Origin: a virus
Direction: 5' to 3' (one strand)
Virus record (IMG/VR): IMGVR_UViG_3300032313_001281
Location: 1 to 64,000 of that record
DNA: 64,000 nucleotides
Below are positions 14,641 through 54,271 of the stretch, in pieces (the first letter of the stretch is position 1; the number at the start of each line of letters is the position of its first letter). A program made the translations under genes and the position numbers. The notes beneath the pieces were generated by a model, which saw nothing but the letters and a program-made list of their open reading frames with translations, made no database searches and had not been told where the DNA came from.

Positions 14641-16158
14641 TTATTTGTTACAGTAAGATCTGGCTCTGGCCAATTCAGGAATATAGTCTTCTAACCTACT
14701 GTTTCTTGATTCATCTAGTTTGTCATTGTATTCAAAAAAACTTGTCAGCAATCTTGGATCGTATTCATGATTTTGATGCCTTGAAATCACTTCATCTACA
14801 AGGTTGTTGGTGTTTCTACCATTGTTATGATACACTTTGGTTTCTCTGCATCTATACATGGATTCCAATACTTGTTCCTTTAGAGGATTGTGCCAGGGGC
14901 CAAGATAGTTGTCTACAGTGCTGGCCGGTTGCACCAAAGTATTATGCCCAGGAAATTCACGATCATAAAACTCATAAACCTCATGTATTCTGGTAGCATT
15001 GTACATCATAAACACTGTCTGAAATGCCAGTTGATGTCCTTTTTCAATTATCTGATAGCAATTTTTTCTCACAGATTCAAAATCACTGCCCCACCTGATG
15101 TAATCATTGATTTTTTTATAGCCATCAAAGCTGACACTGAAATTTACCTGAGAAAATTCCTTCAGCAGATCCCATAAGGTGTTGCTGATCTTGTGTCCAT
15201 TGGTTCCAATGGTAAGATAAAAGTTTGTTTGATTTTGCTTGATACATCGTCGCAAAAAAGTATAAAATTCAGGTATAACTGTTGGATCACCACCGGTGTA
15301 ATGTATTCGTTTCACAGTGTCAAAGTTGATTTTGTCCCAGGGAAAATCTTGCATGCGCCATTGGTCAGTTCGAATCGGCCAGCCAATTTTCTTGTATTCT
15401 TTTTCAATAAGATGGCTATGCACGTCATCACACATCCTACACATGATATTGCACTTGTTACTTGGACGTATTTCAATGTATGCTGGATCTCTGACATCTT
15501 TGAGATCAGTTATGTTTTTCAGTCTTAGCTCCATGGCCCATTCTAACGATTCAAATTGTCTGGCAGATTCTCCATCGTGTTGTTCTCTTTCGTAGCATAC
15601 ACCGCAACGTTCGTGCATTTGAATTCCAGCCAACATATTATCTCTTATGACACCAAATGCTGGATCAGTTGACCAGTTGGTAATTTTTTCAATCTTGGTC
15701 ACAGGTGTGGGATTTTTTTGACATTGTACAACGTTGCCATAATCATTGTTTAACCCTATAAAAGGGTAAACGCAGACACTTTTGTTGGTTCTCAATAAGT
15801 CGTACCAATACAGTATGGTCTCATTTCCAAGATTGTTTCTGAACTCGGTAGCAATACCTTTTTTCTCCAACGCAATCATTAGTTTGAAGGTATGGACAAA
15901 TGATTTCCAGTGTGGATAACTGTCAATGTCTTGATCTATCATTACAACCAAATCAAAGTGCTTGGCCAAATTACTGATAATATCGCCAGAAGATATGTCT
16001 GCTATGCTGGTATGGTAGTAACCATTTTTAACAGGAGCAAAATGTTCTGAGGTAATAAGGCCATGATTAATGGCAGAATTTTTTTTGGCCAGTTCGATGA
16101 CCAAGATGTCGGTATTCTCAGTTTCGTTGCCAATACATAGTATTTTTTTATCGGGCAT
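14641..16158 (-). CDS. Radical SAM protein with N-terminal extension
   Basis: Of 505 residues, the first 180 form an alpha/beta domain without known motif. A Cys pair at 185-188 (CGVC) follows, then the radical SAM cluster CNIMCRMC (Cys236, Cys240, Cys243), and HYTGGDP as the SAM-binding GGE-like motif. Similar twitch-domain radical SAM proteins occur in phages and marine bacteria. The upstream Cys pair could bind an auxiliary cluster. No precursor peptide is obvious nearby, so the substrate may be a sugar, a nucleotide or a protein side chain. Composition is a little more AT-rich than the neighbours. Confidence 0.85.
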   Translation of the reverse strand: MPDKKILCIGNETENTDILVIELAKKNSAINHGLITSEHFAPVKNGYYHTSIADISSGDIISNLAKHFDLVVMIDQDIDSYPHWKSFVHTFKLMIALEKKGIATEFRNNLGNETILYWYDLLRTNKSVCVYPFIGLNNDYGNVVQCQKNPTPVTKIEKITNWSTDPAFGVIRDNMLAGIQMHERCGVCYEREQHDGESARQFESLEWAMELRLKNITDLKDVRDPAYIEIRPSNKCNIMCRMCDDVHSHLIEKEYKKIGWPIRTDQWRMQDFPWDKINFDTVKRIHYTGGDPTVIPEFYTFLRRCIKQNQTNFYLTIGTNGHKISNTLWDLLKEFSQVNFSVSFDGYKKINDYIRWGSDFESVRKNCYQIIEKGHQLAFQTVFMMYNATRIHEVYEFYDREFPGHNTLVQPASTVDNYLGPWHNPLKEQVLESMYRCRETKVYHNNGRNTNNLVDEVISRHQNHEYDPRLLTSFFEYNDKLDESRNSRLEDYIPELARARSYCNK

Positions 16159-19680: not shown

Positions 19681-20838
19681 TCAGACTGTGCTAGAGATAT
19701 CACTGATTTCGCCAAGATATCTGCCAATGGAAAATTTTGGTTTAACCCCACCAACATACATGTTGTTTTCTCTCATCTCATTGACCGGAACCACCGAGTT
19801 CATATACTGCATGCCTTGACGCCAAATCCTTAAAAAATCAGAATTCTCATCACGATGAAACCAACTATCCCATTCTCTCAGAAAACCATGACTGGATTTT
19901 TCACAATCCCAGTGCGGTAAAAATCTTTTGGGATAAATTACAGATGCTATCCAGTCCTGAATGTTGCGACTGCTCCAATTGATTAAGAGTTTGTCTGCAT
20001 GCGATTTACCATTTTGCATGCGATTTAATGCCGTCAAAACCAGATGACCTTGTTTGCACAGCAGTTCGCCAGCCGAAGGAGCCCAATAAAAATGTTCAAT
20101 AAAATTATAGTTGCTATTGTTGTTGCGCAAGGGATTCTGTCGATTCAAATTTTCATCATCAAATACCAGGTGCAGGCCATTCCCTCGGCGAAAAAATCTG
20201 GGTTTTTCCATGCCTGTGATATGTGCTACAGTCTTGCCTTGATCCACCATCTTGGTGTATCTTTGATCCAAACAATTTGGGGTCGAAAGTACCAACATGC
20301 CAGGATCTAAATTGTTGTATTCTTCAAACCAGGCAGGGTTGTCTCTCATGATATCAACGGCTAATTGTTTGGTTTCTACTACGGTAATTTTTAGATCAGG
20401 TTGATATTGTTCTTTGAAAATTTTTGCAGCAGGAACAGCAGCAATGCCGATTTCGGCATAGGTATTTTTCGCAGATCTAACTGTGGAATCTTGGATGCTG
20501 TCAGAAAAAGGACCACGTGTAACCACTTCATCTAGTTTGATATCATTAACAGCAAAGGTCTGCAATATATTTCCACTGTCATGTCCACCACTGAGATGCA
20601 GGACAAGATAATCGTATTTGTTTCTGATTTCTTGTGCTCGTTGCGTATATAAATCTTGTATGCTAGATTTCGGCTCAACAGACCAATCTATTAGATCAAA
20701 GTAATCGTTGTTAAAACACCATGAAAAATCTAAACCATGCGCCTTACAGTGCAAAATACATTCTAGTTTGTTGTAAAACTTTTTTTTGTCGGATGATAGA
20801 TAGTAACCGTATCTGTCAAAGTCAAATATGCTATACAT
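19681..20838 (-). CDS. PP-loop ATPase, asparagine-synthase-like (paralog A)
   Basis: 385 residues with the ATP-pyrophosphatase signature SGGHDS at 83-88, after an N-terminal 75-residue domain. This fold adenylates a carboxyl or carbonyl and then adds an amine or sulfur. There is no Cys cluster, so it is not a typical QueC or N-acetyl-sugar amidotransferase, and no N-terminal Cys glutaminase. It is closely related to 33121-34305; both share the DL/ELYxxRAQxIRxKYDY segment. It starts in a TGATG overlap with a TctC-like gene, and the paralog also sits next to a TctC gene. Substrate unknown. Confidence 0.8.
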   Translation of the reverse strand: MYSIFDFDRYGYYLSSDKKKFYNKLECILHCKAHGLDFSWCFNNDYFDLIDWSVEPKSSIQDLYTQRAQEIRNKYDYLVLHLSGGHDSGNILQTFAVNDIKLDEVVTRGPFSDSIQDSTVRSAKNTYAEIGIAAVPAAKIFKEQYQPDLKITVVETKQLAVDIMRDNPAWFEEYNNLDPGMLVLSTPNCLDQRYTKMVDQGKTVAHITGMEKPRFFRRGNGLHLVFDDENLNRQNPLRNNNSNYNFIEHFYWAPSAGELLCKQGHLVLTALNRMQNGKSHADKLLINWSSRNIQDWIASVIYPKRFLPHWDCEKSSHGFLREWDSWFHRDENSDFLRIWRQGMQYMNSVVPVNEMRENNMYVGGVKPKFSIGRYLGEISDISSTV

Positions 20839-21776
20839 CAGTTTGGTTCCAAAATCTTCATTTGATCATTTATCATACGCCATTGATGAGCTTGTTTTTT
20901 TACCTGTGTTTCAAAAGTGCCATCTAGCACAGACATCACCGCCATTCCTTGTTCGTGTGCCTGTTTTTGAAAATCTTTTGAAAAAACATGTCGTGAATAT
21001 TTTTTCCTAAGTTCTTGGATTTGTGCTTGGTCTAACTTACTGTTTACTGCCAGTGCTGACCAGTTGTAAAAAACGAATCCATCCAGCCAATCATGCATCA
21101 ACGGATACTGATTGAATCGAGAATCGTTTGGTGCTGATCCCAATGCCATTATGTCAATGTCTTTGCCTATGTTTGCAGCTACAATGCCCAGATTATCTAG
21201 CATGATATCAATGTGTCCACCCAACAGTGCAGCTTTCACATCGCCGCTGCCTTTGAAAGGAACTACAATCAACTCGTGTGCTGTGTATTTTTGCATCCAA
21301 CGTGCAAAAAATTCATGTGCGGTCCCGCCCACACCAATGGTTATACTCAACCTGTTGTTGGTAGGCCCAAATAATTCTTTCATTGTTTTGACCTTGCTGG
21401 TTTTTGTGTTGATTGCCATGACCTCGGGACTGGCCAGAAAGGGAGAAATTATAGTCAAGTCTCGCAAAGGGTCAATTTTTTTGGTGCGCATGGGTTCAAA
21501 CAGTATTATACCTGGCCCCACGCCGATCAAGGAGGTTGCATCCGGTGGCAATGTCAGATAAGCATGGTAGCCTACTAGTCCGCCTGCACCTGCACGATTT
21601 TGGATTATGGTTCGTGTGTTATCGTATTTGTCTGAAAAGTTGGCTAGTTGTCTGGACCACAGGTCAACATTTCCACCCGTAGAAAAGGGAACGATGATTG
21701 TAGTATTGGCTATGGCCATGTTGCCAAACAAGCACAAGATAGCCGTGACCAATACCAAAGTGAGTTTTTTAATCAT
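20838..21776 (-). CDS. Tripartite tricarboxylate transporter (TctC/Bug) substrate-binding protein A
   Basis: 312 residues with a signal peptide (hydrophobic to about residue 23, cleavage near AIA/NTT). It has the family blocks IIVPFSTGGNVDLWSR, RAGAGGLVGYHAYL and VPFKGSGDVKAALLGGHID. Bug proteins bind carboxylic acids in the periplasm for TctAB, and are expanded in Burkholderiales. No TctA or TctB is present here, so the phage would have to use host permeases or use the protein only as a binder. The stop overlaps the PP-loop start as TGATG. Confidence 0.93.
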   Translation of the reverse strand: MIKKLTLVLVTAILCLFGNMAIANTTIIVPFSTGGNVDLWSRQLANFSDKYDNTRTIIQNRAGAGGLVGYHAYLTLPPDATSLIGVGPGIILFEPMRTKKIDPLRDLTIISPFLASPEVMAINTKTSKVKTMKELFGPTNNRLSITIGVGGTAHEFFARWMQKYTAHELIVVPFKGSGDVKAALLGGHIDIMLDNLGIVAANIGKDIDIMALGSAPNDSRFNQYPLMHDWLDGFVFYNWSALAVNSKLDQAQIQELRKKYSRHVFSKDFQKQAHEQGMAVMSVLDGTFETQVKKQAHQWRMINDQMKILEPN

Positions 21777-23093: not shown

Positions 23094-24137
23094 CTAACTG
23101 GGATTTTTACGTTTGAACTGGATCTTTTTATTGGTGGCTTTGAATCTTGTCACGGTCATGTTTTCCGGGCAAAGACTGCATTGTGGCACAGGTACGGCAC
23201 TGCGCAGATCATCCACAAATGATTCCAACTGATCGGTTGGCCAATCAACTTCGGCCGGCACATATGATTCTATTAGATGTCGTTGAGCAACTGACATGGT
23301 TACCGGAAACTGCTTGATGAAATCCGGTAGTATGCCCACGGGCCCGCATTTATAAAGTTTGCCCTTGATTATGTGATGGCATTTTTTAAAATAGCATACC
23401 TCCATGGCTCGCACGGGATCACTGTTGTGCAGAAACAGTCCGTGATTCACGGGATCATATGTCACAGTGGAAGTATTGAAACTGTCTGCCATGGCCAATT
23501 CAACCCTGATGCCATTGCGATCAACTATGCGATGGGTGAAGACTTCGCGAGACCAGATTTTGGGACTGAAATGATGTATGTCGTGGCATTCCTTCTGTAT
23601 GTGTATGGGCAAATCAAAAAAGTCATCCAGTGTGGCACAATCCGGCCAGCTGTCGTCGCGGATCCTGTGATAGCAAGAATTCCAAAGATTGAGCATACGT
23701 TGATCAACTAAGACATGTGCTGGATCGACCACGTCATCTAAAAAATCCATGATGTTGCGAGATATTTCAGATTTTGAATCTAGATTATGGCAATTGACTT
23801 CTAACATTATGCGACCGTTGTGTTCCAGCAACACATCGTACAACTGAGGCCAGCGAGCAAACTGTGTGCCATTGGTTATTATCTTGATCTTGCTGTGTGG
23901 CCATAGACTGGCGATGCCCTTGACCCATAACAGGAAATCTGGGTTGGTCATGGGTTCGCCGCCCAGTATTCCAACAGTGTCAAGATCTAGCAACTGGGCC
24001 CATTTCTGATTTTGGCTGACATGATCCTGCCAGCGAGTGTGCCCGGAAAAACTGTAATTGTTGCAGCGATTACAATTTGGACAGTTGAGATTGCACACAT
24101 TGGTTATATAAAATTCAGTATAGTCTAGCTTGAGCAT
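23094..24137 (-). CDS. Radical SAM/SPASM-like protein
   Basis: About 347 residues from the ATG at 24137 (24155 is an alternative). The [4Fe-4S] motif is CNLNCPNC at Cys15, Cys19 and Cys22, then VGILGGEP for SAM binding. Later Cys clusters (CYFKKCHH, LYKCGPVG and CSLCPEN) look like a SPASM/twitch auxiliary-cluster region. SPASM enzymes modify peptides or sugars by hydrogen abstraction. No leader-peptide gene is recognised nearby. It is one of three stand-alone radical SAM proteins in the window. Confidence 0.85.
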   Translation of the reverse strand: MLKLDYTEFYITNVCNLNCPNCNRCNNYSFSGHTRWQDHVSQNQKWAQLLDLDTVGILGGEPMTNPDFLLWVKGIASLWPHSKIKIITNGTQFARWPQLYDVLLEHNGRIMLEVNCHNLDSKSEISRNIMDFLDDVVDPAHVLVDQRMLNLWNSCYHRIRDDSWPDCATLDDFFDLPIHIQKECHDIHHFSPKIWSREVFTHRIVDRNGIRVELAMADSFNTSTVTYDPVNHGLFLHNSDPVRAMEVCYFKKCHHIIKGKLYKCGPVGILPDFIKQFPVTMSVAQRHLIESYVPAEVDWPTDQLESFVDDLRSAVPVPQCSLCPENMTVTRFKATNKKIQFKRKNPS

Positions 24138-24156
24138 TGCTGTATATATACACAAA

Positions 24157-25580: not shown

Positions 25581-26609
25581 ATGCTTGATCTAGCCGATGT
25601 ACGTCAAGTTCAAATTGAACTAACCACCCGTTGCAATGCCCGTTGTCCAATGTGTATGAGAAACTATCGTGGATACGATTACAACAGCGGGTATCCTGAG
25701 ACTGAACTTTCTTTGGAAGATATCAAAAAAATATTACCTGTTGAATTTTTAAAACAGTTGACCAAATGCATCAGCTTCAATGGTAATTTGGGAGATTTTG
25801 GTCTGGCACGCGATGCTCAAGAAATTGTGCATTATTTAACAGACTTGGATGTTCCGGTCCGTATCAACACCAATGGCAGCATGCGCACACCCGATTGGTG
25901 GGCCAATTTGGCCAGACCCGAAGTCACAATTGGTTTTGCACTGGATGGCATTGATCAACCTACGCATGCTCTGTATCGTCAAGACACAAATTGGGATACA
26001 GTTATAAAAAATGCCAAAGCATTTATATCTGCTGGGGGTAAAGCCATTTGGAGATTCATTCCCTTTGATCACAATCGTCATCAAGAATCTGCTTGCCGGC
26101 AAATGGCCCAGGACCTGGGATTTGCCATATTTGAAAACATTGATGAAGGCCGCAATCGTGGTGCTGTGTATACAAGATCGGGAGAATTCAGTCACTGGCT
26201 AGGGGAACCGTGGACTGAACAAGAAAGAATCAATCCTACTCCAGTGAAGCAGTTGCTTGACCATCATGTTACTTGGTTTGATACTAAAACCGTGCTGTCA
26301 GAAAAAGACACTCAACCACTGAATTTAATCTGTCAACACAAACGTCTTGAAGAGATATACATAGCTGCCGACGGCACAGTGTGGCCTTGTTGTTTTTTAG
26401 GGTTTTATCCGGCTACCATGCACCATCCTGGCAACAGTCAGTTGGCACCTCTGGTGGCAGAAAACAATGCCTTGGAATATGATCTAGCTCACTGTATGGC
26501 CTGGTTTAGCAGAGTAGAAGAAACCTGGAGCAAAAACAGCATAGCTGAAGGGCGTCTGTATGGGTGTGTGAACAGTTGCGCAAACAATAAATCAAATTAC
26601 CCTGGGTGA
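25581..26609 (+). CDS. Radical SAM/SPASM-like protein (plus strand)
   Basis: 342 residues with CNARCPMC (Cys18, Cys22, Cys25), the FNGNLGDFGL segment in place of GGEP, and a Cys pair near the C-terminus (AADGTVWPCCFLG and YGCVNSC) typical of a SPASM domain. Plus orientation inside a minus-strand genome and an apparent late-type start make it a likely moron. No ribosome site is present. Substrate unknown; the glycan-enzyme cluster follows on the opposite strand. Confidence 0.85.
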   Translation: MLDLADVRQVQIELTTRCNARCPMCMRNYRGYDYNSGYPETELSLEDIKKILPVEFLKQLTKCISFNGNLGDFGLARDAQEIVHYLTDLDVPVRINTNGSMRTPDWWANLARPEVTIGFALDGIDQPTHALYRQDTNWDTVIKNAKAFISAGGKAIWRFIPFDHNRHQESACRQMAQDLGFAIFENIDEGRNRGAVYTRSGEFSHWLGEPWTEQERINPTPVKQLLDHHVTWFDTKTVLSEKDTQPLNLICQHKRLEEIYIAADGTVWPCCFLGFYPATMHHPGNSQLAPLVAENNALEYDLAHCMAWFSRVEETWSKNSIAEGRLYGCVNSCANNKSNYPG

Positions 26610-29467: not shown

Positions 29468-30208
29468 TCAATTAAAAGTTTTTGTCAACCCAACTACCAC
29501 TGCGTTCTTGTAGAGCTTTTGGCCCGATACAGTGTTGGCAGTTTCAAAGGCGCCGGTTGTGCCAGTATTGGTGAAATACTTGACACTGACGTCATACTCT
29601 CGTGGTAAGCTGTAAACAAACCCAGCATTGATGTCATTGTAATCATATGCTGAACTGTTGGCCACATTGGTACGACCATAGTGAGCAACCACAGCAAGAT
29701 TCTTGATCACAGGAACTGGTAACTTGCCATCAACTTGTGTATAGTTGGTGCCACGAGCATTGGCTGTACCGAAGTAACCGTTGCCCAAGGTTTGGCTATA
29801 CTTGGCAGAAATAATATCTTTGTAACCCAATCCAACATAGCCTTCATAGGTGTCAAAGCCGGAGCCAGTTGAGGCTGATGTGGCGGCACGTGGATAGAAA
29901 TAGTTGTAGCTACCAACGTCAACGCTGATACCTTTAAAAATTTCTTTCTTGTAACCGGCATAGAGGTCGCTTTCTAAGCCTGCACCTGAAGTGTAGACTT
30001 GGCTAGAAACCGAGCTGTTCCAGTTACCAACGTAGAAGCCACTCTTGGTTGCATAGTCAATGCCGCCCTGAACTGCAGGAGCATTTTGGGTTTGGCTAAC
30101 ACCGCGGAAACGGTAGTCGCTGGTCAAACCTAAATTGCCAGTGAGTTGAGCTTGAGCCGAGGCAACAAAGCCAGCGGACAAGGCTAATGCGATTAATAAT
30201 TTTTTCAT
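29468..30208 (-). CDS. Gcw_chp family outer-membrane beta-barrel protein
   Basis: 246 residues with a clear signal peptide (KKLLIALALSAGFVASAQAQ). The mature start NLGLTSDYRFRGVSQ is the Gcw_chp/PF09694 signature. Alternating aromatic strands run to the C-terminus VVVGLTKTFN, whose final Phe-Asn is typical of outer-membrane barrels. Similar proteins occur in T4-like phages (recollection) and Proteobacteria. It could change host envelope permeability or receptor exposure. A clean AAAAGGAAAAT site precedes the start, and it is a single-gene unit with its own terminator. Confidence 0.9.
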   Translation of the reverse strand: MKKLLIALALSAGFVASAQAQLTGNLGLTSDYRFRGVSQTQNAPAVQGGIDYATKSGFYVGNWNSSVSSQVYTSGAGLESDLYAGYKKEIFKGISVDVGSYNYFYPRAATSASTGSGFDTYEGYVGLGYKDIISAKYSQTLGNGYFGTANARGTNYTQVDGKLPVPVIKNLAVVAHYGRTNVANSSAYDYNDINAGFVYSLPREYDVSVKYFTNTGTTGAFETANTVSGQKLYKNAVVVGLTKTFN

Positions 30209-30286
30209 GCTTGAGATTTTCCTTTTAGAAGAATGCTGGACGATCGCCCAACAAATTATTTAGTGGTTATCACTGACGGACCAACA

Positions 30287-30312
30287 AAAAAGCCTGATTT
30301 CTCAGGCTTTTT
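30287..30312 (-). terminator. Rho-independent terminator of the tmRNA gene
   Basis: An 11-base-pair stem (AAAAAGCCTGA / TCAGGCTTTTT) with a 4-base loop and a T run on the minus strand, right after the tmRNA coding piece. Confidence 0.88.
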
Positions 30313-30645
30313 AGACTAGTTTGGGTGACAAGGCATAGTTGCCCCGGAGATCATGCCGCTAAGGCAAAGACCTCGTTATTAGATGCGTTTGCATTTAATA
30401 GAGTTGCTTGATTTACAGTCATCGCCTACTGTGTAGATCCTGTTCATACTTGTTGCCACGTCGAAACTGTGTATGGCCCATCAAAAGCATATTGTAACGC
30501 GAACAAGAGTGAGTCGTTCCAAGTCGCCAGATCAACAAACACATTTCTGCGTTGTTCTCGCACCTGCAATATGCTTTTGGTGGACCATTCGGGCACTGCC
30601 CCCGAGTCCGCAACACCTTTCTGTCAAGGCATTAAACTACAATTC
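30313..30645 (-). ncRNA. ssrA: Circularly permuted two-piece tmRNA gene (ssrA)
   Basis: tmRNA rescues stalled ribosomes and tags the nascent protein for proteolysis. On the minus strand the acceptor piece comes first. It has a T-type stem TCGGG/CCCGA, the acceptor 3' strand ATGGTCC, then A and CCA at 30581-30578. A processed segment follows, bracketed by the 12-base inverted repeat AAAAGCATATTG (30578-30567 and 30494-30483). The coding piece starts near 30479 with GGGCCAT, pairing with ATGGTCC over seven positions (one G-T). GCAACA (30456-30451) pairs with TGTTGC (30615-30610) as helix P2. The tag frame 30392-30351 reads ANASNNEVFALAA then TGA. The T loop is GGCAGTG, without TTC. A consensus promoter and a terminator flank it. 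Mature ends are estimates. Confidence 0.93.
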
Positions 30646-30651
30646 TTTAAT

Positions 30652-30680
30652 ATTATACGACACACCTATTTATGTGTCAA
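30652..30680 (-). promoter_or_regulatory. Perfect sigma70 promoter of the tmRNA gene
   Basis: Minus-strand TTGACA (30680-30675), 17-base spacer, TATAAT (30657-30652): both hexamers match consensus. Predicted start near 30645. Confidence 0.92.
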
Positions 30681-30719
30681 CCAGATCCGACCCACCACCA
30701 CGTTTTGAGAACGTGGAAA

Positions 30720-30788
30720 CTATAATACCAACAAGAATACCACAACAACAATGACCACACCAATGGCCCAACTGTAGTCTTGATTCAT
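30720..30788 (-). CDS. Tiny membrane protein (22 residues)
   Basis: MNQDYSWAIG followed by an uninterrupted hydrophobic run (VVIVVVVFLLVL), ending TAG. It starts in a GAATGA overlap with the stop of the preceding tiny gene and has GGAGGG seven bases before the ATG, a strong sign that it is translated. A single transmembrane helix is likely; function unknown. Confidence 0.5.
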   Translation of the reverse strand: MNQDYSWAIGVVIVVVVFLLVL

Positions 30789-30868
30789 TCGTTATCCCTC
30801 CATGCCTTCAACTCAATCATGGCATACAACAACAGGGACACTGCAATTATGGAAAACATGATCAACAT
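30785..30868 (-). CDS. Tiny membrane protein (27 residues)
   Basis: Starts MLIMFSIIAVSLLLYAMIEL and ends KAWRDNE: one transmembrane helix with a charged tail. The ATG lies one base after the stop of the 57-residue gene, with AAAGG upstream, and its own stop overlaps the next tiny gene. Membrane mini-proteins of this type can be lysis or transport accessories; no homology is recognised. Confidence 0.5.
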   Translation of the reverse strand: MLIMFSIIAVSLLLYAMIELKAWRDNE

Positions 30869-30869
30869 G

Positions 30870-31043
30870 TTAATTGTAACCTTTGATGTTTTTGCCGTCA
30901 ATCTTAGGATTGCCTCGTACAATCGCGTTTTCAAGTCGACGGTTGCGATCACGTTCGGGCGGTAACGGCCCACAACCTAACCTTGCCCACTCATCATCTG
31001 AGTAGTAGTAGCTTTCCACCGGTAGTTTCTTTTGCTGTCCCAT
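30870..31043 (-). CDS. Small hypothetical protein (57 residues)
   Basis: From the ATG at 31043, which lies five bases after a TATAAATA box; the in-frame ATG at 31070 is inside the terminator and is rejected. The sequence MGQQKKLPVESYYYSDDEW, then GPLPPERDRNRRLENAI, is hydrophilic and basic in the middle. It heads a unit with two tiny membrane proteins. Function unknown. Confidence 0.6.
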   Translation of the reverse strand: MGQQKKLPVESYYYSDDEWARLGCGPLPPERDRNRRLENAIVRGNPKIDGKNIKGYN

Positions 31044-31048
31044 AAAAA

Positions 31049-31056
31049 TATTTATA
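31049..31056 (-). promoter_or_regulatory. T4-late-like promoter element (TATAAATA)
   Basis: Exact TATAAATA on the minus strand, five bases (TTTTT) before the ATG at 31043, so the predicted mRNA starts at the start codon. Confidence 0.55.
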
Positions 31057-31059
31057 AAA

Positions 31060-31080
31060 AAACCCACCATTGGTGGGTTT
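31060..31080 (-). terminator. Rho-independent terminator
   Basis: A 9-base-pair stem (AAACCCACC / GGTGGGTTT) with a 3-base loop and a T run on the minus strand, ending the DctP-like transcript. Confidence 0.85.
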
Positions 31081-31100: not shown

Positions 31101-32057
31101 TCAAGCCTTGCGGATACGTTGAATTAGATTGTCAGCAAATGTGCTTTCAAATTCAGCATACACTGACTGCATCTTGTCCTTCATTGATGCTGTTTCTTCT
31201 GCGGTAGGCTCATACACCGTCTTGCCTTCACTGATCAAACGATCACGTGCTTGGATACCATCAACAATTGTGGTTTGACGTTCGTTACGGCCGGCTTGGA
31301 TAGCGGCTGTCTTGATCACTGCTTTGACTTCTGCACTGAGACTGTCCCAGAAACGATCACCAATTATCATTGTGGTCAAGAACAAGCTGTGCTTGCTGTC
31401 AACAACACTTTGGATTACATCGTTCTGGTTCAACGGATAGATGCGGCTATACACTGTGTCATTACCGTTGCAATCGCCACGGGCCACGTGTTCACGTGCT
31501 TCTTCAGTTTCGCAAATGAATGGCTCAACGCCACTCATGGTACGGATCACAGCACGGCCCACTGGGTTACGATTTGAACGTAGTTTTTCACCAGTCAAGT
31601 CGGCCAATGTGCTCACTGGCTTGTTCACGCCCAAGCAACGGAAGCCGCCCGAGTATGTGTAAGCAAGTCCGCGAACATTGCTGTTGTCTGTGAGTTTGGC
31701 TAACAAAGTTTCGCCAACTTCACCTTCAAGCACACGGCTAGCATGGTCATGATCGTTGAAAATGTAAGGCATTTCAAACGCCAAGAAATCGTGTTCATAA
31801 TGTTCAGCCAACCAAGTGGTGTACATCTGACTCATTTCAATTTTGCCCTGTTCCATCAGGTCTAACAAATCGTGCTTAGTGACTACAATGCCATCGTTAT
31901 ACCTGGCACTGTATTCACCCAACGTCATAACTTCAATTTCAATTTTCTCTGCAGATTGCTGTGCATTGATTTCTTTTTCAAAATCTTGTGCTGCACGTAC
32001 AAACAAGCTGAGTGGCTCGTGGGCAATAACCCAACGAATTTTAGTAGTTTTGCTCAT
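31101..32057 (-). CDS. DctP-like TRAP substrate-binding protein without signal peptide
   Basis: 318 residues. The family features are present: FEMPYIFNDHDHASRVLEGEVG, GLAYTYSGGFRCLGVNKPVSTLADLTGEKLR and a long C-terminal helix region. TRAP binding proteins capture organic acids in the periplasm. This one begins MSKTTKIRWVIAHEP with no hydrophobic signal segment, so it probably stays in the cytoplasm or uses another route. DctP-like proteins have been seen in marine T4-like phages (recollection). A good AAGGAG site precedes the start, after a structured 139-base leader. Confidence 0.85.
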   Translation of the reverse strand: MSKTTKIRWVIAHEPLSLFVRAAQDFEKEINAQQSAEKIEIEVMTLGEYSARYNDGIVVTKHDLLDLMEQGKIEMSQMYTTWLAEHYEHDFLAFEMPYIFNDHDHASRVLEGEVGETLLAKLTDNSNVRGLAYTYSGGFRCLGVNKPVSTLADLTGEKLRSNRNPVGRAVIRTMSGVEPFICETEEAREHVARGDCNGNDTVYSRIYPLNQNDVIQSVVDSKHSLFLTTMIIGDRFWDSLSAEVKAVIKTAAIQAGRNERQTTIVDGIQARDRLISEGKTVYEPTAEETASMKDKMQSVYAEFESTFADNLIQRIRKA

Positions 32058-32196: not shown

Positions 32197-33111
32197 TTAT
32201 TTATCCAATGATACACCTTGTGTCAAACGTTTCCACTGTGCAACCTGTGAATTAAACCAAGCATCAATTTGATTGTCAGGCATCTGGTTATTTGGAACAC
32301 AGTTATCAGCATCATTGGCATTGCGTACACTTTGAGCACGACTGGCTTCCACCAGGATCTTGCGTATTTCACGGAACTTTTCATCTGACAATTTACGTGA
32401 TGCAAAAATCTGCTGTGGAGTACTCATGTCACCGAGGTCTTTATTAAATCCCTGCTTTGACAACAATTCTGTGCCTTTGATACTGGCTTGTCCGGTTTGC
32501 CCAAGCCAATAAACTTTTTTAGCAGATCCAGGAACAGTGTACTGTTCGCTGTCACCGTGGAATCCCACTGAAAAATCTACTGAACCATTGAGAACCCCTA
32601 ACAAAGCTTCGCTGGTGCTTTTAAACGGCACAATGGTTAAATTTGGATAATTTTTGGCAATCTGAATACTGACCAAATGTGTGGTAGTGCCCATGCCGCT
32701 CATGCCAATGGATAGTTTAGCATCACGTGGCACGTCTTGCCAGCTTTTGTATCGGGCGCTGCTGATCACAAAAGGACTCACACACATAGGCAGAATACTG
32801 CGAAAATCTGCCATGCTGTGACTGTCAGCTGGCAACAAATTTGGACGAATAAATCCAGCAGAACTGTTAATCCACAAGGTATTTGAAGGGTTGTTTGTGG
32901 TGTAATTTGCTGCCACGGTACCACCAGCTCCGGGTTTGGTATCAAACAAAAATGTGTATTGCGTCTGTAGTTTGTTGGCTTCTTCGGTTAATGCACGATA
33001 GAAATTTGCTGCCTTGTCGGCAGCTGTCCAACTATAAGCCAGGGTAATAGTTTCTTTTGCTGACACTGTCAACGACAGGGTGGCTAGCAATAATGTTAAT
33101 AATTTCTTCAT
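32197..33111 (-). CDS. TctC/Bug-type substrate-binding protein B
   Basis: 304 residues with a signal peptide (KKLLTLLLATLSLTVSA). Family blocks: TKPGAGGTVAANY, the GMSGMGTTTHLVSIQIAKN ligand region, and VPFKSTSEALLGVLNGSVDFS. It is more divergent than TctC-A at 20838. The PP-loop ATPase paralog B ends 9 bases upstream, repeating the pairing seen at 19681-21776 in reverse order. AAGGAAAA site. Probably periplasmic carboxylate binding, using host partners. Confidence 0.9.
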   Translation of the reverse strand: MKKLLTLLLATLSLTVSAKETITLAYSWTAADKAANFYRALTEEANKLQTQYTFLFDTKPGAGGTVAANYTTNNPSNTLWINSSAGFIRPNLLPADSHSMADFRSILPMCVSPFVISSARYKSWQDVPRDAKLSIGMSGMGTTTHLVSIQIAKNYPNLTIVPFKSTSEALLGVLNGSVDFSVGFHGDSEQYTVPGSAKKVYWLGQTGQASIKGTELLSKQGFNKDLGDMSTPQQIFASRKLSDEKFREIRKILVEASRAQSVRNANDADNCVPNNQMPDNQIDAWFNSQVAQWKRLTQGVSLDK

Positions 33112-39836: not shown

Positions 39837-41080
39837 AATCTGCGGGTGTTTCCATAGTGCAACACAGTCATACCCGGCATGTCCACAGGCAATTTTCGCC
39901 AAGGATCCACAATCACACTGCCAGGTTTGATGCTGTAATAAAACTTGTCGATATGATCACCGGCCACATAGTCATAGGTCACTGAACGATTGTGGGCCAT
40001 CAACACCACAGCTGGCCGATCAAAGTCAATGATCACATCTTGGGTGTCGTCGGCCAACGGGTCCACATATCTGATCTGATGACCTGCTTGCGTGACATAG
40101 TGGCCAATCAAGGTCGAATAACTGCCAATACAATAGGGCACGTCTGGCTTGTAGGCCTTGCCGTGTATGATGATGGGCAGATTGTGTTTGACAGCTTGTG
40201 CTACTAGAAAATCAGCTAGATTGCGAGCCTGTTGTTCTCGAGCCAGCATGATTGTGTCAAACAGATCATAACCAATGTTGTATTCTTCGGCCAACCAACG
40301 CAGGGCTATGTTGTCTCTGGGATGGCAGGCACCTGCATCACCCATGCCTGCGGTCATGTACTTGGGTCCCATGATGCGCTGGGTACTGTGTGCAAGAGCG
40401 TTGGTTACAACATCCACGTTGATGTTGCCTATGCGCTGGGCAAAGTCTTGTATCATGTTGACCAAACCAACCTTGGCACTGATAAATGTGTTGTAGAATA
40501 TCTTGATAGCTTCACACTCTTCCCAGGTTCCTATTTCAAAACGTGGATTGTTTCGGACCATGGGTCGGTATAGTTCAACCAGTTCTTCGGCCAGTTCAGT
40601 GCGGTTTCCGTATTCAGTGCCAATCATGATCATTTCCGGATTGACCATGTCCCACTTGACACTGCCCATGGCTATGAGATACGGATTGTATAGAAACTGA
40701 TGTTGTTTGTTCAGCAGCCCTGCAAAATGCTGTCTGGTAGTGCCCGGTAACACTGTGCTGATCAACACAACCCGTTTAGAAGTGGTGGCATAGTGATTGA
40801 TCTTGGTCAAACTACTCTGCACAGCTTCATGGATAAAATCTTTGGGAGGCATGTGACTGCTAGGAACACTTCCGTCGTAGCCCTCCAAATGTGGAGTAGG
40901 CACTGCTACAAATATCCAATCGCTGGCTTGCACTACTTCTTGAATGTCACACACTTTTACAGTGTTGCTGGTGCGTGGAACAATGTCATAGCCACGCACT
41001 GTGTAATGTTCGGCAAACACCTCTGCCGCATCCATGCCCAGTTTTCCTAGTCCAACAAATCCAATGTTCATTTGCCCCAT
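39833..41080 (-). CDS. UDP-glucose/GDP-mannose dehydrogenase family protein
   Basis: 415 residues. N-terminal Rossmann NIGFVGLGKLGMD, central helix, catalytic Cys in GACHPRDNIA, and a C-terminal NDP-sugar domain. VPTPHLEG and STVLPGTTRQH are typical. The enzyme oxidises an NDP-hexose to a uronate in two NAD steps. The 13-base overlap with queE couples it to the preQ genes. A second, shorter homolog is at 43371. The substrate base is undetermined. Confidence 0.88.
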   Translation of the reverse strand: MGQMNIGFVGLGKLGMDAAEVFAEHYTVRGYDIVPRTSNTVKVCDIQEVVQASDWIFVAVPTPHLEGYDGSVPSSHMPPKDFIHEAVQSSLTKINHYATTSKRVVLISTVLPGTTRQHFAGLLNKQHQFLYNPYLIAMGSVKWDMVNPEMIMIGTEYGNRTELAEELVELYRPMVRNNPRFEIGTWEECEAIKIFYNTFISAKVGLVNMIQDFAQRIGNINVDVVTNALAHSTQRIMGPKYMTAGMGDAGACHPRDNIALRWLAEEYNIGYDLFDTIMLAREQQARNLADFLVAQAVKHNLPIIIHGKAYKPDVPYCIGSYSTLIGHYVTQAGHQIRYVDPLADDTQDVIIDFDRPAVVLMAHNRSVTYDYVAGDHIDKFYYSIKPGSVIVDPWRKLPVDMPGMTVLHYGNTRRL

Positions 41081-41949
41081 CCGTTACCCCATAAGTCTAC
41101 ATGCAATCTTGGACTGTAGTTCCATCCATGCTTGACACAGATGTCTGCTATGCGTAACTTGTTTCGATCGTAGGGTTCAACTACTCCACCCTGTGGCATT
41201 AAATAAATTTGTCCTGTAAATCCACCAGCACGGAAAGCATCTGCAGCCTTGATTGCTTCTGTAATATGCTCGTCTGTTTCAACAACAAACTTGAGATATG
41301 TGTGACCAATGTCTTGATAGCTCTTAACAATGTCTGGACAAATTGCATCTTCCCATGACTCACCTGACGCACTTAGCTTTGCACTTACACTAAATGTCAA
41401 ATTGTTATAACCACGTCTTTTGTATTTGGGATTCAGTGTCCAATCCAACATCGTGTGCCTAAAGTCTGCGTGAATCTTTTGTGTGCCGTTGGTCTCAAAT
41501 GTAATATTACGCAGATCCTGCATGCGTTCATGTTGCAACAGTTCTGTATATGCACGTTGCCAGCCCAACAAAGGTTCTCCACCAGTAATCACAAGATGCA
41601 CATCGTTGCCATTGTTCTGCTGCCACATGTTGTTGGGAGTCAGTGCCAACATGCGTTCTACCAGTTCTTCTGTGGTCTGTGACGGGCTCAAGTGTTTGTA
41701 AGCTGGGTGCCACGACGCATAACTATCGCATCCGGTCTCCACTAGGGGTAGATCATTGAATGTAGGATACATATGGACCACTTCGGCCACGTCGTCAGCA
41801 CCGGTGCTTTTTTCGCCTGGCTTACAACCAAATCCTGCACAGGTAAAGTTACAGCCATAGGTGCGTAAGAACACACTAGGCACACCAACAAAGCGACCTT
41901 CGCCTTGTAAACTGTAGAATACTTCTGAAACTTTTATCTTTGCCACCAT
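41068..41949 (-). CDS. queE: 7-carboxy-7-deazaguanine synthase QueE (phage variant)
   Basis: 293 residues from the ATG at 41949 (an in-frame GTG also follows). QueE converts carboxytetrahydropterin to 7-carboxy-7-deazaguanine. SEVFYSLQGEGRFVG and ITGGEPLL are diagnostic. The cluster motif reads CNFTCAGFGC (Cys33, Cys37, Cys42), that is C-x3-C-x4-C, whereas the usual QueE motif is C-x3-C-x2-C. A second Cys-containing insert (GCDSYASWHP) is also present. It belongs with folE, queD and the dpdA-like gene in this window. It overlaps the phosphoribosyltransferase gene by 16 bases. Confidence 0.9.
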   Translation of the reverse strand: MVAKIKVSEVFYSLQGEGRFVGVPSVFLRTYGCNFTCAGFGCKPGEKSTGADDVAEVVHMYPTFNDLPLVETGCDSYASWHPAYKHLSPSQTTEELVERMLALTPNNMWQQNNGNDVHLVITGGEPLLGWQRAYTELLQHERMQDLRNITFETNGTQKIHADFRHTMLDWTLNPKYKRRGYNNLTFSVSAKLSASGESWEDAICPDIVKSYQDIGHTYLKFVVETDEHITEAIKAADAFRAGGFTGQIYLMPQGGVVEPYDRNKLRIADICVKHGWNYSPRLHVDLWGNGWGK

Positions 41950-42437
41950 GCCTCCCAAGGAAATACAATCCACGAATCTTCTTCAGCTTTATTTAGATCA
42001 ACGGCTGAATAACTAATTTTTAATTTGCTCTTACTTGCTTCGTTATCTACCAGCACCGCCACACGTACATTGTTGCCCCATACGTCTTTCCAACGCTTGT
42101 CTTTGGGAAAACACCCACTAGGCCAATCTTCCTTGATCCAATTTAATGTGGCACCCGAGTCGTTGATATCGTCTACAATAAGGATCTGCTTGCCTTCATA
42201 TGCATCTTCGGCCATCCACAAGTTACTTTCGCAAGCATTTTCATCACCGTCACGCAGACTTACCTTTAGTGTTTGCATGGGAACTTCTAGATATTGGCTA
42301 ATAAGGTTGGCCGGAACCAAGCCGCCACGTGTGAGCCCAACCACATAGTCTGGACGCCAGGCATCTGCGTGTAGTTGTCGTAGAATTTCTTGTGTCTGGC
42401 ACTCTACATCTTGCCAGGTATGATAGATTTTTTTCAT
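41934..42437 (-). CDS. Phosphoribosyltransferase (purine type)
   Basis: 167 residues from the ATG at 42437. The PRPP motif is ILIVDDINDSGATL, preceded by YVVGLTRGGLVPANL. Length and motif fit xanthine/guanine-type phosphoribosyltransferases, which salvage a purine base onto PRPP. Next to queE it might act on a deazapurine or supply GTP precursors; this is inference. A sigma70-like promoter lies five bases before the ATG. Confidence 0.85.
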   Translation of the reverse strand: MKKIYHTWQDVECQTQEILRQLHADAWRPDYVVGLTRGGLVPANLISQYLEVPMQTLKVSLRDGDENACESNLWMAEDAYEGKQILIVDDINDSGATLNWIKEDWPSGCFPKDKRWKDVWGNNVRVAVLVDNEASKSKLKISYSAVDLNKAEEDSWIVFPWEAWWQR

Positions 42438-45162: not shown

Positions 45163-46388
45163 TGTTGTAAGAACCTTGTGTTGGGATTTATATTCGATAT
45201 GGCTTGTTTGAGACCTGCACCAATGTTCCAGCTCAAGATCACAGCATACGGCTTGTCATACTGAGCAAAGATTGTGTCGTCAGCAATGGGTATTCTGCTC
45301 AAAGGAGTGTATTTTCCTTGTTTGAATGCGCTGGAATCAGTTATGTATTTCAAGTGTGTTCGGTTGAGACCGTGCCAGGTCAGCCAGGTATTAGCCTTGG
45401 CAGCAGCACCCACTCCTATAAACACAGCTTCTGGTTCGTTCTGTCGTATTTCATAGAACTGACGCAACCATTGATCTCGCTGTTGTTCAAATCTGCGTTG
45501 CACTACCTCATAGAAACGTGTGTCAAATAGACCAATCTGTGTTTCTCTGGCTATGGCATCTTCTATGGCCACGGGCATAGCGGCTCCGGTGTCACGACGA
45601 GCAAACACTCTAAGGCTGCCGCCGTGGTAGTCAACCACATCAAAGTCTGTGATTTCTAGTCCCGCGGTCCTGAGCATATTCCAGGCCATCTTGATAGTAA
45701 AGTATGTAGGATGTTCATGATACACCATGTCAGTGAAACGACCTGACTCAATCATGCTGAGCCAATAAGGCACTTCAAACACAAACACAGCATCATCGGA
45801 CAACAAAGAGGCCACAGCTCTAGCAAATGCAACAGGATCGTTGGCATGATTGAACACATTATTGGCCATTACAACATTGGCACTGCCCACACGTTTAACT
45901 AGATCTTTGGCCACAGATTCGCAGAACATGGCTGGCATGACCTCTACACCACGTTCTTTGGCAACATGACACATGTCCATGCTGGGGTCTATTCCTATGG
46001 CACGCACTCCTTCTCCGCGGAACTGATTGATTAGATAGCCATCGTTACTGCCTATTTCCACAGCAAACTTTATTGCTGGACATCTATTCTTCACAGTGGT
46101 GGCATATTCATTCCAGTGTGCTCGAGCTGTGGCACTGTTGCTGGAAGTATAGCTGTAGCTGTAGAGACTGTACCGATCCTCGGCATGGCTCACATAGCCC
46201 AACTGTATGCTGCCAGAGTCAGCATTGAGATTGACCTGTAGTGGAAACACAGGCTCGCTGAGATTGAGTTGGTTCTCAGCGACGAAAGTGTCTGCATAGG
46301 CATGCTGACCAAAGTCAAGTATTTTTGTCACTGGTTGCTGGCTGATCAAACAATGTGTCACTGCTTGGCTGGTAGTTATATTGGTCAT
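45159..46388 (-). CDS. Sugar C-methyltransferase (NovU/TylC3 family)
   Basis: 409 residues. The SAM motif VEIGSNDGYLINQF, NVFNHANDPVAF and YHEHPTYFTI are signature segments, and a C-terminal Rossmann-like domain has VFIGVGAAAKANTWL. The N-terminal zinc site is degenerate: only one Cys remains in CLISQQP. This type adds a methyl to carbon 3 of a dTDP-keto-deoxysugar. It overlaps both neighbours by 1-4 bases. Confidence 0.88.
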   Translation of the reverse strand: MTNITTSQAVTHCLISQQPVTKILDFGQHAYADTFVAENQLNLSEPVFPLQVNLNADSGSIQLGYVSHAEDRYSLYSYSYTSSNSATARAHWNEYATTVKNRCPAIKFAVEIGSNDGYLINQFRGEGVRAIGIDPSMDMCHVAKERGVEVMPAMFCESVAKDLVKRVGSANVVMANNVFNHANDPVAFARAVASLLSDDAVFVFEVPYWLSMIESGRFTDMVYHEHPTYFTIKMAWNMLRTAGLEITDFDVVDYHGGSLRVFARRDTGAAMPVAIEDAIARETQIGLFDTRFYEVVQRRFEQQRDQWLRQFYEIRQNEPEAVFIGVGAAAKANTWLTWHGLNRTHLKYITDSSAFKQGKYTPLSRIPIADDTIFAQYDKPYAVILSWNIGAGLKQAISNINPNTRFLQQ

Positions 46389-49498: not shown

Positions 49499-50038
49499 TT
49501 ATCCTTCGTATACTGCTGAGTTTGCATTGTGCTCAAACACTTCAACTGAACGCAACTTAACACCTTGCCCAACAGGATAGCGACACTTGAATTCTTTTAC
49601 AGTATTTCCGTCTTGTGAAACCAGAAACCAAGAGTTACCTGCTTGAAATGCCCGGAGAATATTTTCCATGGTTTTGTAAGCAAGTTCGGCAAACTTTTCG
49701 CAACCTACACCCTCAACAATACGAACATCGCATACTCCACCTTGATCTTGCAACCCTAGTTCGGCCATCTTTTCAAACATAGTACGATGAGGATCATCTT
49801 CGGCAATCACTAACGTGTGATCAAACATATACTCAGACCACTCTTTGAATGCTTTGAGTCCACCAAAGTCCATGACCCAATTACGATCATCCAATGTTTC
49901 ACTTTCAAAAATTAGTTTGATACCAATCGAGTATCCGTGTAGTAATGAGCAATGACTGTGTGTGCTTCGCCATTGTCTAAAACAGCATGAAAGTCCGCGG
50001 TCGTTACCGTAAGTTTTTGTTGAAAGATATTTTGCCAT
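49499..50038 (-). CDS. queD: 6-carboxytetrahydropterin synthase QueD-like
   Basis: 179 residues. STKTYGNDRGLSCCFRQWRSTHSHC and FDHTLVIAEDD are typical of phage QueD, and FEHNANSA is near the C-terminus. It converts dihydroneopterin triphosphate into carboxytetrahydropterin, the QueE substrate. The canonical HGH zinc ligand is HGY (residues 34-36), so one metal His may be replaced. It has its own promoter and an AGGAGAAA site. Confidence 0.88.
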   Translation of the reverse strand: MAKYLSTKTYGNDRGLSCCFRQWRSTHSHCSLLHGYSIGIKLIFESETLDDRNWVMDFGGLKAFKEWSEYMFDHTLVIAEDDPHRTMFEKMAELGLQDQGGVCDVRIVEGVGCEKFAELAYKTMENILRAFQAGNSWFLVSQDGNTVKEFKCRYPVGQGVKLRSVEVFEHNANSAVYEG

Positions 50039-52994: not shown

Positions 52995-53423
52995 TTAGTG
53001 TACACTAACTTCTTGTTCTAAATAGCGAATCAGCTCTTTGTCTGTGGGTTCTACTGTGTAATTGTTCTTGAAGAAGATTTCATAACTGTCTGATCCGTAT
53101 TTGCCTATACCATACAGTTTGTCGGCTTGGTTGCCATCCCATTCCATAAAATCCAGGGTCATCTGTGTGAGCCTTTCGTAGCGACGATTCACCATGCCCA
53201 GACTCCAAATCACATCACGAACCTCGTCCGGAGTGGCCTGCAGGAATGCATACGGACTAGGCCACTTGTGCCAAAATACAGGTGCAACTGACTTCACAGG
53301 CTTGCGACCAGTTTGATTCAGCATGATCACTGCTACCATGTGTTGCCAGGCCGCATTAACACTCTCCAAGCCATCAGGCAACTGTTGTTGCACCATGAGA
53401 TCATCACGGAGTGGCTGTATCAT
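52995..53423 (-). CDS. HhH-GPD DNA glycosylase, MBD4/Nth-like
   Basis: 142 residues. AVIMLNQTGRKPVKSVAP, LGMVNRRYERLTQM and KLYGIGKYGSDSYEIF (helix-hairpin-helix), then the Asp in VEPTDKELIRYL. This build matches the glycosylase domain of MBD4, which removes T or U mispaired with G. It is shorter than Nth and has no [4Fe-4S] Cys cluster. It overlaps folE by 4 bases. A phage enzyme acting on a damaged or host base is plausible; specificity unproven. Confidence 0.85.
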   Translation of the reverse strand: MIQPLRDDLMVQQQLPDGLESVNAAWQHMVAVIMLNQTGRKPVKSVAPVFWHKWPSPYAFLQATPDEVRDVIWSLGMVNRRYERLTQMTLDFMEWDGNQADKLYGIGKYGSDSYEIFFKNNYTVEPTDKELIRYLEQEVSVH

Positions 53424-54271
53424 CTTGGAGCAAAGTCCTGTTGTAGTTTGATATTGTCCATGAACTCTTTCTTGGTGCCAGGATCTGTTTGGAACACACC
53501 TTTTAACACTGTAGTCTGTGTTAAACTACTGTGTGCCATTATGCCCCTATTTTCGCAACACCCATGTTGAGCTTGTATGTAAACTCCGACATTCTCTGAG
53601 TCGGTTGCTTTCATTATTTCTCTTGCGATGTCGTTGCACAGTTCTTCTTGTAGCGTACCACGGCGAGCGCACCACTGAGCGATCCTAGTATACTTAGACA
53701 GACCGATAAGTTTGTTAGCGGCGATGATGCCAATATAAGCAACACCACTGACAGGCTGATGGTGATGAGAGCACATGCTTCGTAACTCAGAACGCACCAC
53801 AAGCATGCCTTCATAGCGGTCCGCCGAATCATTTGGAAAAGCTGTTGCATCTGGTGCTGGATCATATCGACCTCCCATAATTTCGTTGTAGTACATTTTA
53901 GCAAGACGACGGGCGGTACCTTGGCTGTTAGGATCATTCTCACGATCAATCAACAAGGTATCTAATACTCGTTCAAACGCTTCTGCGGCTTCATCAATCA
54001 AGCGTTCTTTATCACCCTCGTGTAAATATTCGCTAATGTTATCGCCAGCCCAGAAACGTTTTTTATCACGCTTCATGTTAAACCGGATAGCATCGGCTAG
54101 ATACTTGCCTTCTTCGTAACCTTTATCGCTCATGTGCATTACAGCATCTTCGTAGCCGGGATGGTATGGAGCTTCGGCTACTATGCGGCTTTGCTTCAAA
54201 GCGTCAAATGTTGCTTGGCTGTCATTATTTTTCACTGCGTTCTCTCTATCGTCTGAAGTAAATGTTGTCAT
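53420..54271 (-). CDS. folE: GTP cyclohydrolase I (FolE)
   Basis: 283 residues: an N-terminal extension of about 85 residues, then the FolE core. Zinc ligands are in MCSHHHQPV (Cys167, His170) and HGCCENRG (Cys238/239). SKYTRIAQWCARR is the substrate loop. It forms dihydroneopterin triphosphate from GTP, the first step towards preQ0. It has a sigma70-like promoter inside the following gene's 3' end. Confidence 0.93.
   Translation of the reverse strand: MTTFTSDDRENAVKNNDSQATFDALKQSRIVAEAPYHPGYEDAVMHMSDKGYEEGKYLADAIRFNMKRDKKRFWAGDNISEYLHEGDKERLIDEAAEAFERVLDTLLIDRENDPNSQGTARRLAKMYYNEIMGGRYDPAPDATAFPNDSADRYEGMLVVRSELRSMCSHHHQPVSGVAYIGIIAANKLIGLSKYTRIAQWCARRGTLQEELCNDIAREIMKATDSENVGVYIQAQHGCCENRGIMAHSSLTQTTVLKGVFQTDPGTKKEFMDNIKLQQDFAPR

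Follow-up and report, generated by a model that had tools for sequence, protein, structure and literature searches.

The window, a stretch of 64,000 nucleotides, is part of a 76,792-base IMG/VR virus record. A preliminary description of the DNA had proposed that its minus strand carries, in this order, a promoter, an acceptor piece, a processed loop, a coding piece and a terminator. All of these parts were located at 30286-30680. The features of the locus and of its immediate neighbourhood were as follows:

30286-30680, minus strand: circularly permuted tmRNA gene, complete, in the two-piece form
30652-30680, minus strand: sigma-70-type promoter, TTGACA-17-TATAAT, agreeing with the consensus at 12 of 12 positions
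30578-30641, minus strand: acceptor piece with P2 3' strand, T-arm, acceptor 3' strand and encoded ACCA, from the RF04321 match
30589-30605, minus strand: T-arm, TCGGG-GGCAGTG-CCCGA, with an alphaproteobacterial T-loop (GGCRG)
30480-30577, minus strand: intervening sequence (spacer) of 98 nt, a long hairpin that is presumably removed on processing
30449-30479, minus strand: 5' part of the coding piece with acceptor 5' strand GGGCCAT, D-loop ACACAGTTTCGAC and P2 5' strand
30351-30392, minus strand: tag reading frame and stop codon; direct translation of GCAAACGCATCTAATAACGAGGTCTTTGCCTTAGCGGCATGA gives ANASNNEVFALAA*
30311-30350, minus strand: 3' body of the coding piece, resembling the betaproteobacterial 3' domain and aligned by RF01850
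30286-30312, minus strand: intrinsic terminator with an 11-bp stem, a 4-nt loop and a T run; inverted repeat 100%
29468-30208, minus strand: TorF-family porin gene (TIGR02001, E 2.9e-41), directly downstream of the tmRNA gene
30870-31070, minus strand: small ORF of the YYY..EW.R..G..P.ER family, upstream of the tmRNA gene and syntenic in 16 sequences

Transcription is predicted to start near 30645, and the acceptor piece ends at 30578 with ...ATGGTCCACCA. Among related phages, an identical promoter sequence precedes tmRNA genes of both elbow types described below, and the terminator is found as well. A hairpin, CCACGTT...AACGTGG, lies upstream of the promoter at about 30690-30730 on the minus strand and recurs in relatives, where its stems are altered yet complementary (for example, CCAATT/AATTGG in L019). 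The late promoter of T4-type phages is TATAAATA. Two sequences in the window resemble it: CATAAATA at 30667-30674 (minus strand), which precedes the tmRNA gene and overlaps the sigma-70 promoter, and CTAAATAA at 30256-30263 (minus strand), which precedes the porin gene.

Covariance searches of the kind suggested in the preliminary description confirmed, far beyond chance, that the gene is a circularly permuted two-piece tmRNA gene. Specifically, RF04321 matched 30641-30351 over its entire length (model positions 1-213 of 213) with 109.8 bits and an E value of 1.6e-20. As its cut-off is 47, a match to a permuted-tmRNA model was clearly present. RF01849 (alpha_tmRNA) scored 52.5 bits, just above its cut-off of 50, and covered only positions 40-238 of 355; the tag end and the 3' body were left out of this match, as they do not fit the model. 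RF01850 (beta_tmRNA) aligned at full length, 1-331, including the 3' domain and the terminator hairpin (E 4e-23), although its score of 75.9 bits was below the cut-off of 84. The fit of both models to the gene as a whole was poor. The gene also lacks the canonical beta elbow, T-loop UUCRANY with D-loop GG, and instead has T-loop GGCAGUG and D-loop AG. These loops are of the alpha type. RF01851 (cyano_tmRNA) was not listed at the gathering cut-off, nor at E ≤ 10 in 30200-30800, where one lower-scoring match from the same clan was omitted from the table with no family given. ARAGORN called no tmRNA at this locus, likely due to the non-canonical T-loop; this result was not counted as negative because the loop is of the alphaproteobacterial type.

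The elements required of a tmRNA were intact. The preliminary description had proposed pairing across the two pieces. Indeed, the acceptor stem, GGGCCAT/ATGGTCC, is paired at 7 of 7 positions, bears the alanine identity pair G3-U70 and ends in ACCA, and P2, GUGGCA/UGUUGC, comprises six pairs, three of which are G-U. The proposed tag was likewise found, in frame and followed by a stop codon at 30392-30351; ANASNNEVFALAA ends in ALAA, a hydrophobic terminus of the degradation type. Tags of the form ANAS(N/D)(N/D)E(V/I)FALAA were seen again in relatives of either elbow type. Predicted tags in the coding pieces of L044, L049, L050 and L069 were unusually long, at 24-31 residues (for example, ANADTFDFSAMSFTGNTVRGAANESRFALAA). 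The fold of the precursor transcript had a z-score of -5.0 and was better than 100 of 100 shuffles. Across the relatives, the acceptor and T-stem sequences covary through compensatory changes, and P2 pairing exceeded that of re-dealt partners (3.66 versus 2.64 of 7 in 190 distinct sequence pairs). G3-U70 was present in 288 of 289 loci, which had been selected in part by search patterns. The gene in the window is real and probably functional as a tmRNA.

The DNA polymerase encoded by the record belongs to the T4 gp43 family (phrog_262; PF00136), which, together with the RF04321 score, upholds the proposal of a permuted two-piece tmRNA on a T4-like phage. The best matches of the polymerase were to Sinorhizobium phage Phosso, Agrobacterium phage Atu_ph07 and the Cronobacter GAP32 group; blastn against named phages returned short matches only. 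The porin is a syntenic marker of the locus, with the tmRNA gene lying just upstream of it in many relatives. Three uptake-type substrate-binding proteins, two TctC and one DctP, are encoded by ORFs at 20838-21776, 32197-33111 and 31101-32057. Together with the TorF-type porin, they are apparently auxiliary genes for the outer membrane and nutrient uptake, and they hint, without being decisive, at a proteobacterial, perhaps betaproteobacterial, host. FolE-, QueD- and QueE-like genes (41068-41973, 49499-50038 and 53420-54271), with weak scores below the cut-offs, suggest 7-deazaguanine modification of the DNA. By eye, the ORFs at 25581-26609, 14641-16158 and 23094-24155 resemble radical SAM proteins. 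No relative of the YYY protein encoded upstream of the tmRNA gene was found in named phages.

Relatives of the locus were fetched from IMG/VR in two ways, by the porin and by the T-arm sequence, yielding 47 records, all of them metagenomic fragments. A permuted tmRNA scored above the cut-off in 43 of the 47. The records fetched by T-arm were bound to show one; most of those fetched by porin show one too. The form has also been reported: the T4-like phage Melnitz has a two-piece tmRNA, published in 2022, and a survey of tmRNAs from 402 phages counted 53 two-piece forms (PMC9004378). In light of that report and of the 43 records, the view that the permuted form is unusual in a T4-like phage does not hold. 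Phage two-piece tmRNA is a known form, and what is new here is the mosaic make-up of the gene and the cargo in the spacers of related phages. Methylophilales phage Melnitz (MZ577097) resembles the virus of the window in being a T4-like phage with a permuted gene, an alphaproteobacterial T-loop (GGCAGTA) and a long spacer, of 142 nt. In contrast, the body, tag and neighbourhood of its gene are unlike those of the window.

The T-loop of the window, GGCAGTG, departs from TTCRANY. We considered whether this loop represents a new form of tmRNA and rejected the idea: the loop is common in alphaproteobacteria, and GGCRG is present in the RF01849 consensus, while that of RF01850 has UUCGAUU. Among the matches listed in a genome scan for the window's T-loop, most were alphaproteobacterial. 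Across 289 permuted loci, chosen partly by T-loop and never by D-loop, the types of the two loops were linked: GGCRG occurred with AG in 254 of 257 cases and TTCRA with GG in 29 of 29. A third T-loop type, TGCRANN (TGCAAAT, TGCGATT, TGCAATT), was observed in L033, L393, L416, L456, L478 and L386 and may represent a step from one main type to the other. The gene of the window combines an alphaproteobacterial tRNA elbow, GGCAGTG with D-loop AG, with a betaproteobacteria-like tag and 3' body.

Both elbow types occur among phages that share the porin neighbour. On the porin tree, several forks of which are weak, elbow type required at least 8 changes versus 7.7 with shuffled labels, i.e., it is scattered randomly. 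Comparison of the gene with three relatives, segment by segment, located the exchanges. L037 is 97% identical to the window in the spacer and 92% in the body but only 56% in the acceptor piece and 59% on the D-side. L073 is identical in the acceptor piece and the D-side (100% each) and 95% identical in the body, versus 15% in the spacer. In L005, the acceptor piece (100%), spacer (93%) and D-side (98%) are shared, and the body is 36% identical. Therefore, the elbow (both sides together), the spacer and the body move separately. These alignments show that the tmRNA gene is a mosaic produced by recombination among three parts that can be exchanged: the elbow, the spacer and the 3' body with its tag. 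The preliminary description had also suggested that the gene may have been taken from a host. The gene did not simply come from one host: its elbow is of the alphaproteobacterial type, its body fits the beta type best and its segments have passed from phage to phage.

The halves of the tRNA-like domain are distant from each other in standard tmRNA genes. In the permuted gene they are adjacent, so that a single exchange can replace both sides of the contact between the D-loop and the T-loop. We infer that one such exchange could swap the whole contact.

The spacer of the window folds into a hairpin (z = -3.2) whose 11-bp closing stem adjoins the acceptor stem. A 12-base inverted repeat had been described in the loop; it is present, but as part of longer arms of 22 nt that are 91% complementary (30567-30588 and 30473-30494). 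L037, a relative with the other elbow type, has a spacer 97% identical to this one, and the closing stem is preserved between the two by a paired change from C-G to T-A. No ribosome-binding site and no convincing ORF were found in the spacer of the window. A coding role was rejected on this basis and because a 1-nt indel among the four copies disrupts the reading frame. As a class, spacers of 50-100 nt showed no excess of ORFs (1 versus 2.4 expected).

Longer spacers of related phages differ in this respect. In this set of sequences, the median spacer length is 30 nt in hosts and 82 nt in phages, and phage spacer ends pair with each other over 10.6 bp, as compared with 5.9 bp when ends were re-dealt. 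We counted a spacer ORF if it had a ribosome-binding site and covered at least 70% of the spacer. By this measure, among the 22 distinct phage spacers that are at least 140 nt long, 16 contain an ORF, as compared with 0.65 (maximum 3) in shuffled spacers; at 100-140 nt, an ORF was present in 5 of 18, with 1.25 expected. Between the spacer ORFs of L031 and L036, differences were counted at 16 of 20 synonymous sites as against 8 of 73 non-synonymous ones; in most other computable pairs, dN/dS was approximately 0.24-0.5. These values show selection on related spacer ORFs at the level of the protein. Conservation at the protein level was observed for the spacer ORFs of L031, L035, L036, L119, L120, L147, L163, L170, L174, L177, L189, L214, L225 and L478.

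Most spacer ORFs matched no Pfam or PHROG family, and in named phages no relative was found for three of the four families of spacer proteins that were searched first. The ORF of L035 matched the metal-chelating domain PF03692 with 27.3 bits (cut-off 23). Some of these proteins occur both inside and outside spacers. In 23 loci, family B (MEVIWHILL...) is found within the spacer, at offset 12-15; in 30, it stands on its own as a free gene on the upstream side of the tmRNA gene. Family C lies in the spacer in 11 loci, nine of them one-ORF spacers, and also occurs in 68 loci that showed no tmRNA; as some contigs overlap or are nearly identical, such locus counts are not counts of events. The family B member of Melnitz is gene 85, a free gene whose end is four bases ahead of the tmRNA gene. 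Relatives of the YYY ORF of the window lie inside the tmRNA spacers of L129 and L161, the resemblance extending over about 30 residues, and the 443-nt spacer of L478 holds two ORFs in tandem. The Melnitz spacer also contains an ORF, MFKWLSKTRLVVITRDYFRERNRKADAKIPKYLSGTRSV... (MFKWLSKTRLVVITRDYF...), at 46096-46212 of its record and beyond. This ORF has a relative in the spacer of L188; it lies under the SsrA feature, where no coding gene is annotated. The spacer of the window is, in contrast, an apparently non-coding hairpin. In related phages, the spacer therefore often seems to serve as a cargo slot for small protein genes.

We found no report in the open-access literature of protein genes in the spacer of a permuted tmRNA. 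Inserts in the intervening sequence have been described: a 2025 survey noted one permuted gene with a tRNA-Ala gene and one with a repetitive element at this place, as well as a homing endonuclease gene in 36 of 883 intron-form tmRNAs (PMC11915505). Small phage protein ORFs are not mentioned there.

The spacer ORFs raise the question of whether the phages retain this locus chiefly in order to express cargo, either small proteins or an RNA with structure, and not for the rescue of ribosomes. Such a role would agree with the conserved ORFs that occupy most of the long spacers of related phages, and with the conserved, stable hairpin of the window. Nevertheless, we consider it improbable: the tag and the pairing are conserved too, no convincing ORF is present in the hairpin of the window, and many phages have a spacer of only 25 nt, which indicates that cargo is optional.

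We regard the gene, with high though not full confidence, as a functional two-piece phage tmRNA of three-part mosaic structure that is processed, charged with alanine, used with host SmpB and active in ribosome rescue. Its processing and function are inferred from the known two-piece tmRNA of Caulobacter, cited in PMC3985003. In the proposed mechanism, the strong promoter of the gene would yield a single precursor comprising the acceptor piece, spacer, coding piece and terminator. The 98-nt hairpin spacer would be excised by enzymes of the host (RNase P and tRNase Z, by analogy), and the two pieces would pair through the acceptor stem and P2. G3-U70 would direct charging with alanine. An SmpB gene (PF01668) was found neither in the record of the window nor in 24 other records, so that host SmpB must be assumed as the partner. 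During infection, the tmRNA would free ribosomes that have stalled on broken mRNA and append the tag ANASNNEVFALAA to the stalled peptides.

Alternatively, the RNA could act as a decoy that blocks the host tmRNA. There is a precedent in the tag-less tmRNA of mycobacteriophage DS6A, as cited in PMC11915505. However, DS6A lacks a tag frame, whereas the tag frame, stop codon and ALAA end of the window are intact and recurrent, which renders a decoy very improbable. Least probable of all is that the tmRNA was acquired from one host and is now decaying, functionless in the phage: its ORF-less 98-nt spacer and non-canonical elbow loop might suggest decay, but the loop is a standard alphaproteobacterial form, every stem, the tag, the promoter and the terminator are intact, changes in the stems are compensatory, the gene is retained in most of the related records, and the mosaic structure rules out a single recent uptake.

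A functional rescue RNA assembled from exchangeable parts remains the preferred reading of the gene. Beyond the window, we think it more probable than not that, in T4-like aquatic phages, the permuted tmRNA is a modular cassette. Its T- and D-loops could be swapped jointly, and its spacer would be a slot for cargo: a structured RNA, a small protein gene or even two such genes. Expression of this cargo would start from the promoter of the tmRNA, and processing of the precursor would release the cargo or be the point at which it is read.

So far, the two-piece tmRNA of phages has been viewed simply as a gene derived from hosts; here, its elbow, spacer and body have separate histories. As two alternative pairs of D-loop and T-loop swap as a unit, the elbow contact and SmpB specificity are open to tests using natural swaps. 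The spacer cargo of the relatives is the most surprising lead, and because Melnitz is cultured, the reading of a spacer ORF is directly testable. For spacer ORFs that overrun the end of the spacer, the cut that forms the 5' end of the coding piece would give rise to non-stop messages, the substrate of tmRNA. If protein genes do sit in the spacer of an RNA gene, one transcript would be both rescue RNA and mRNA.
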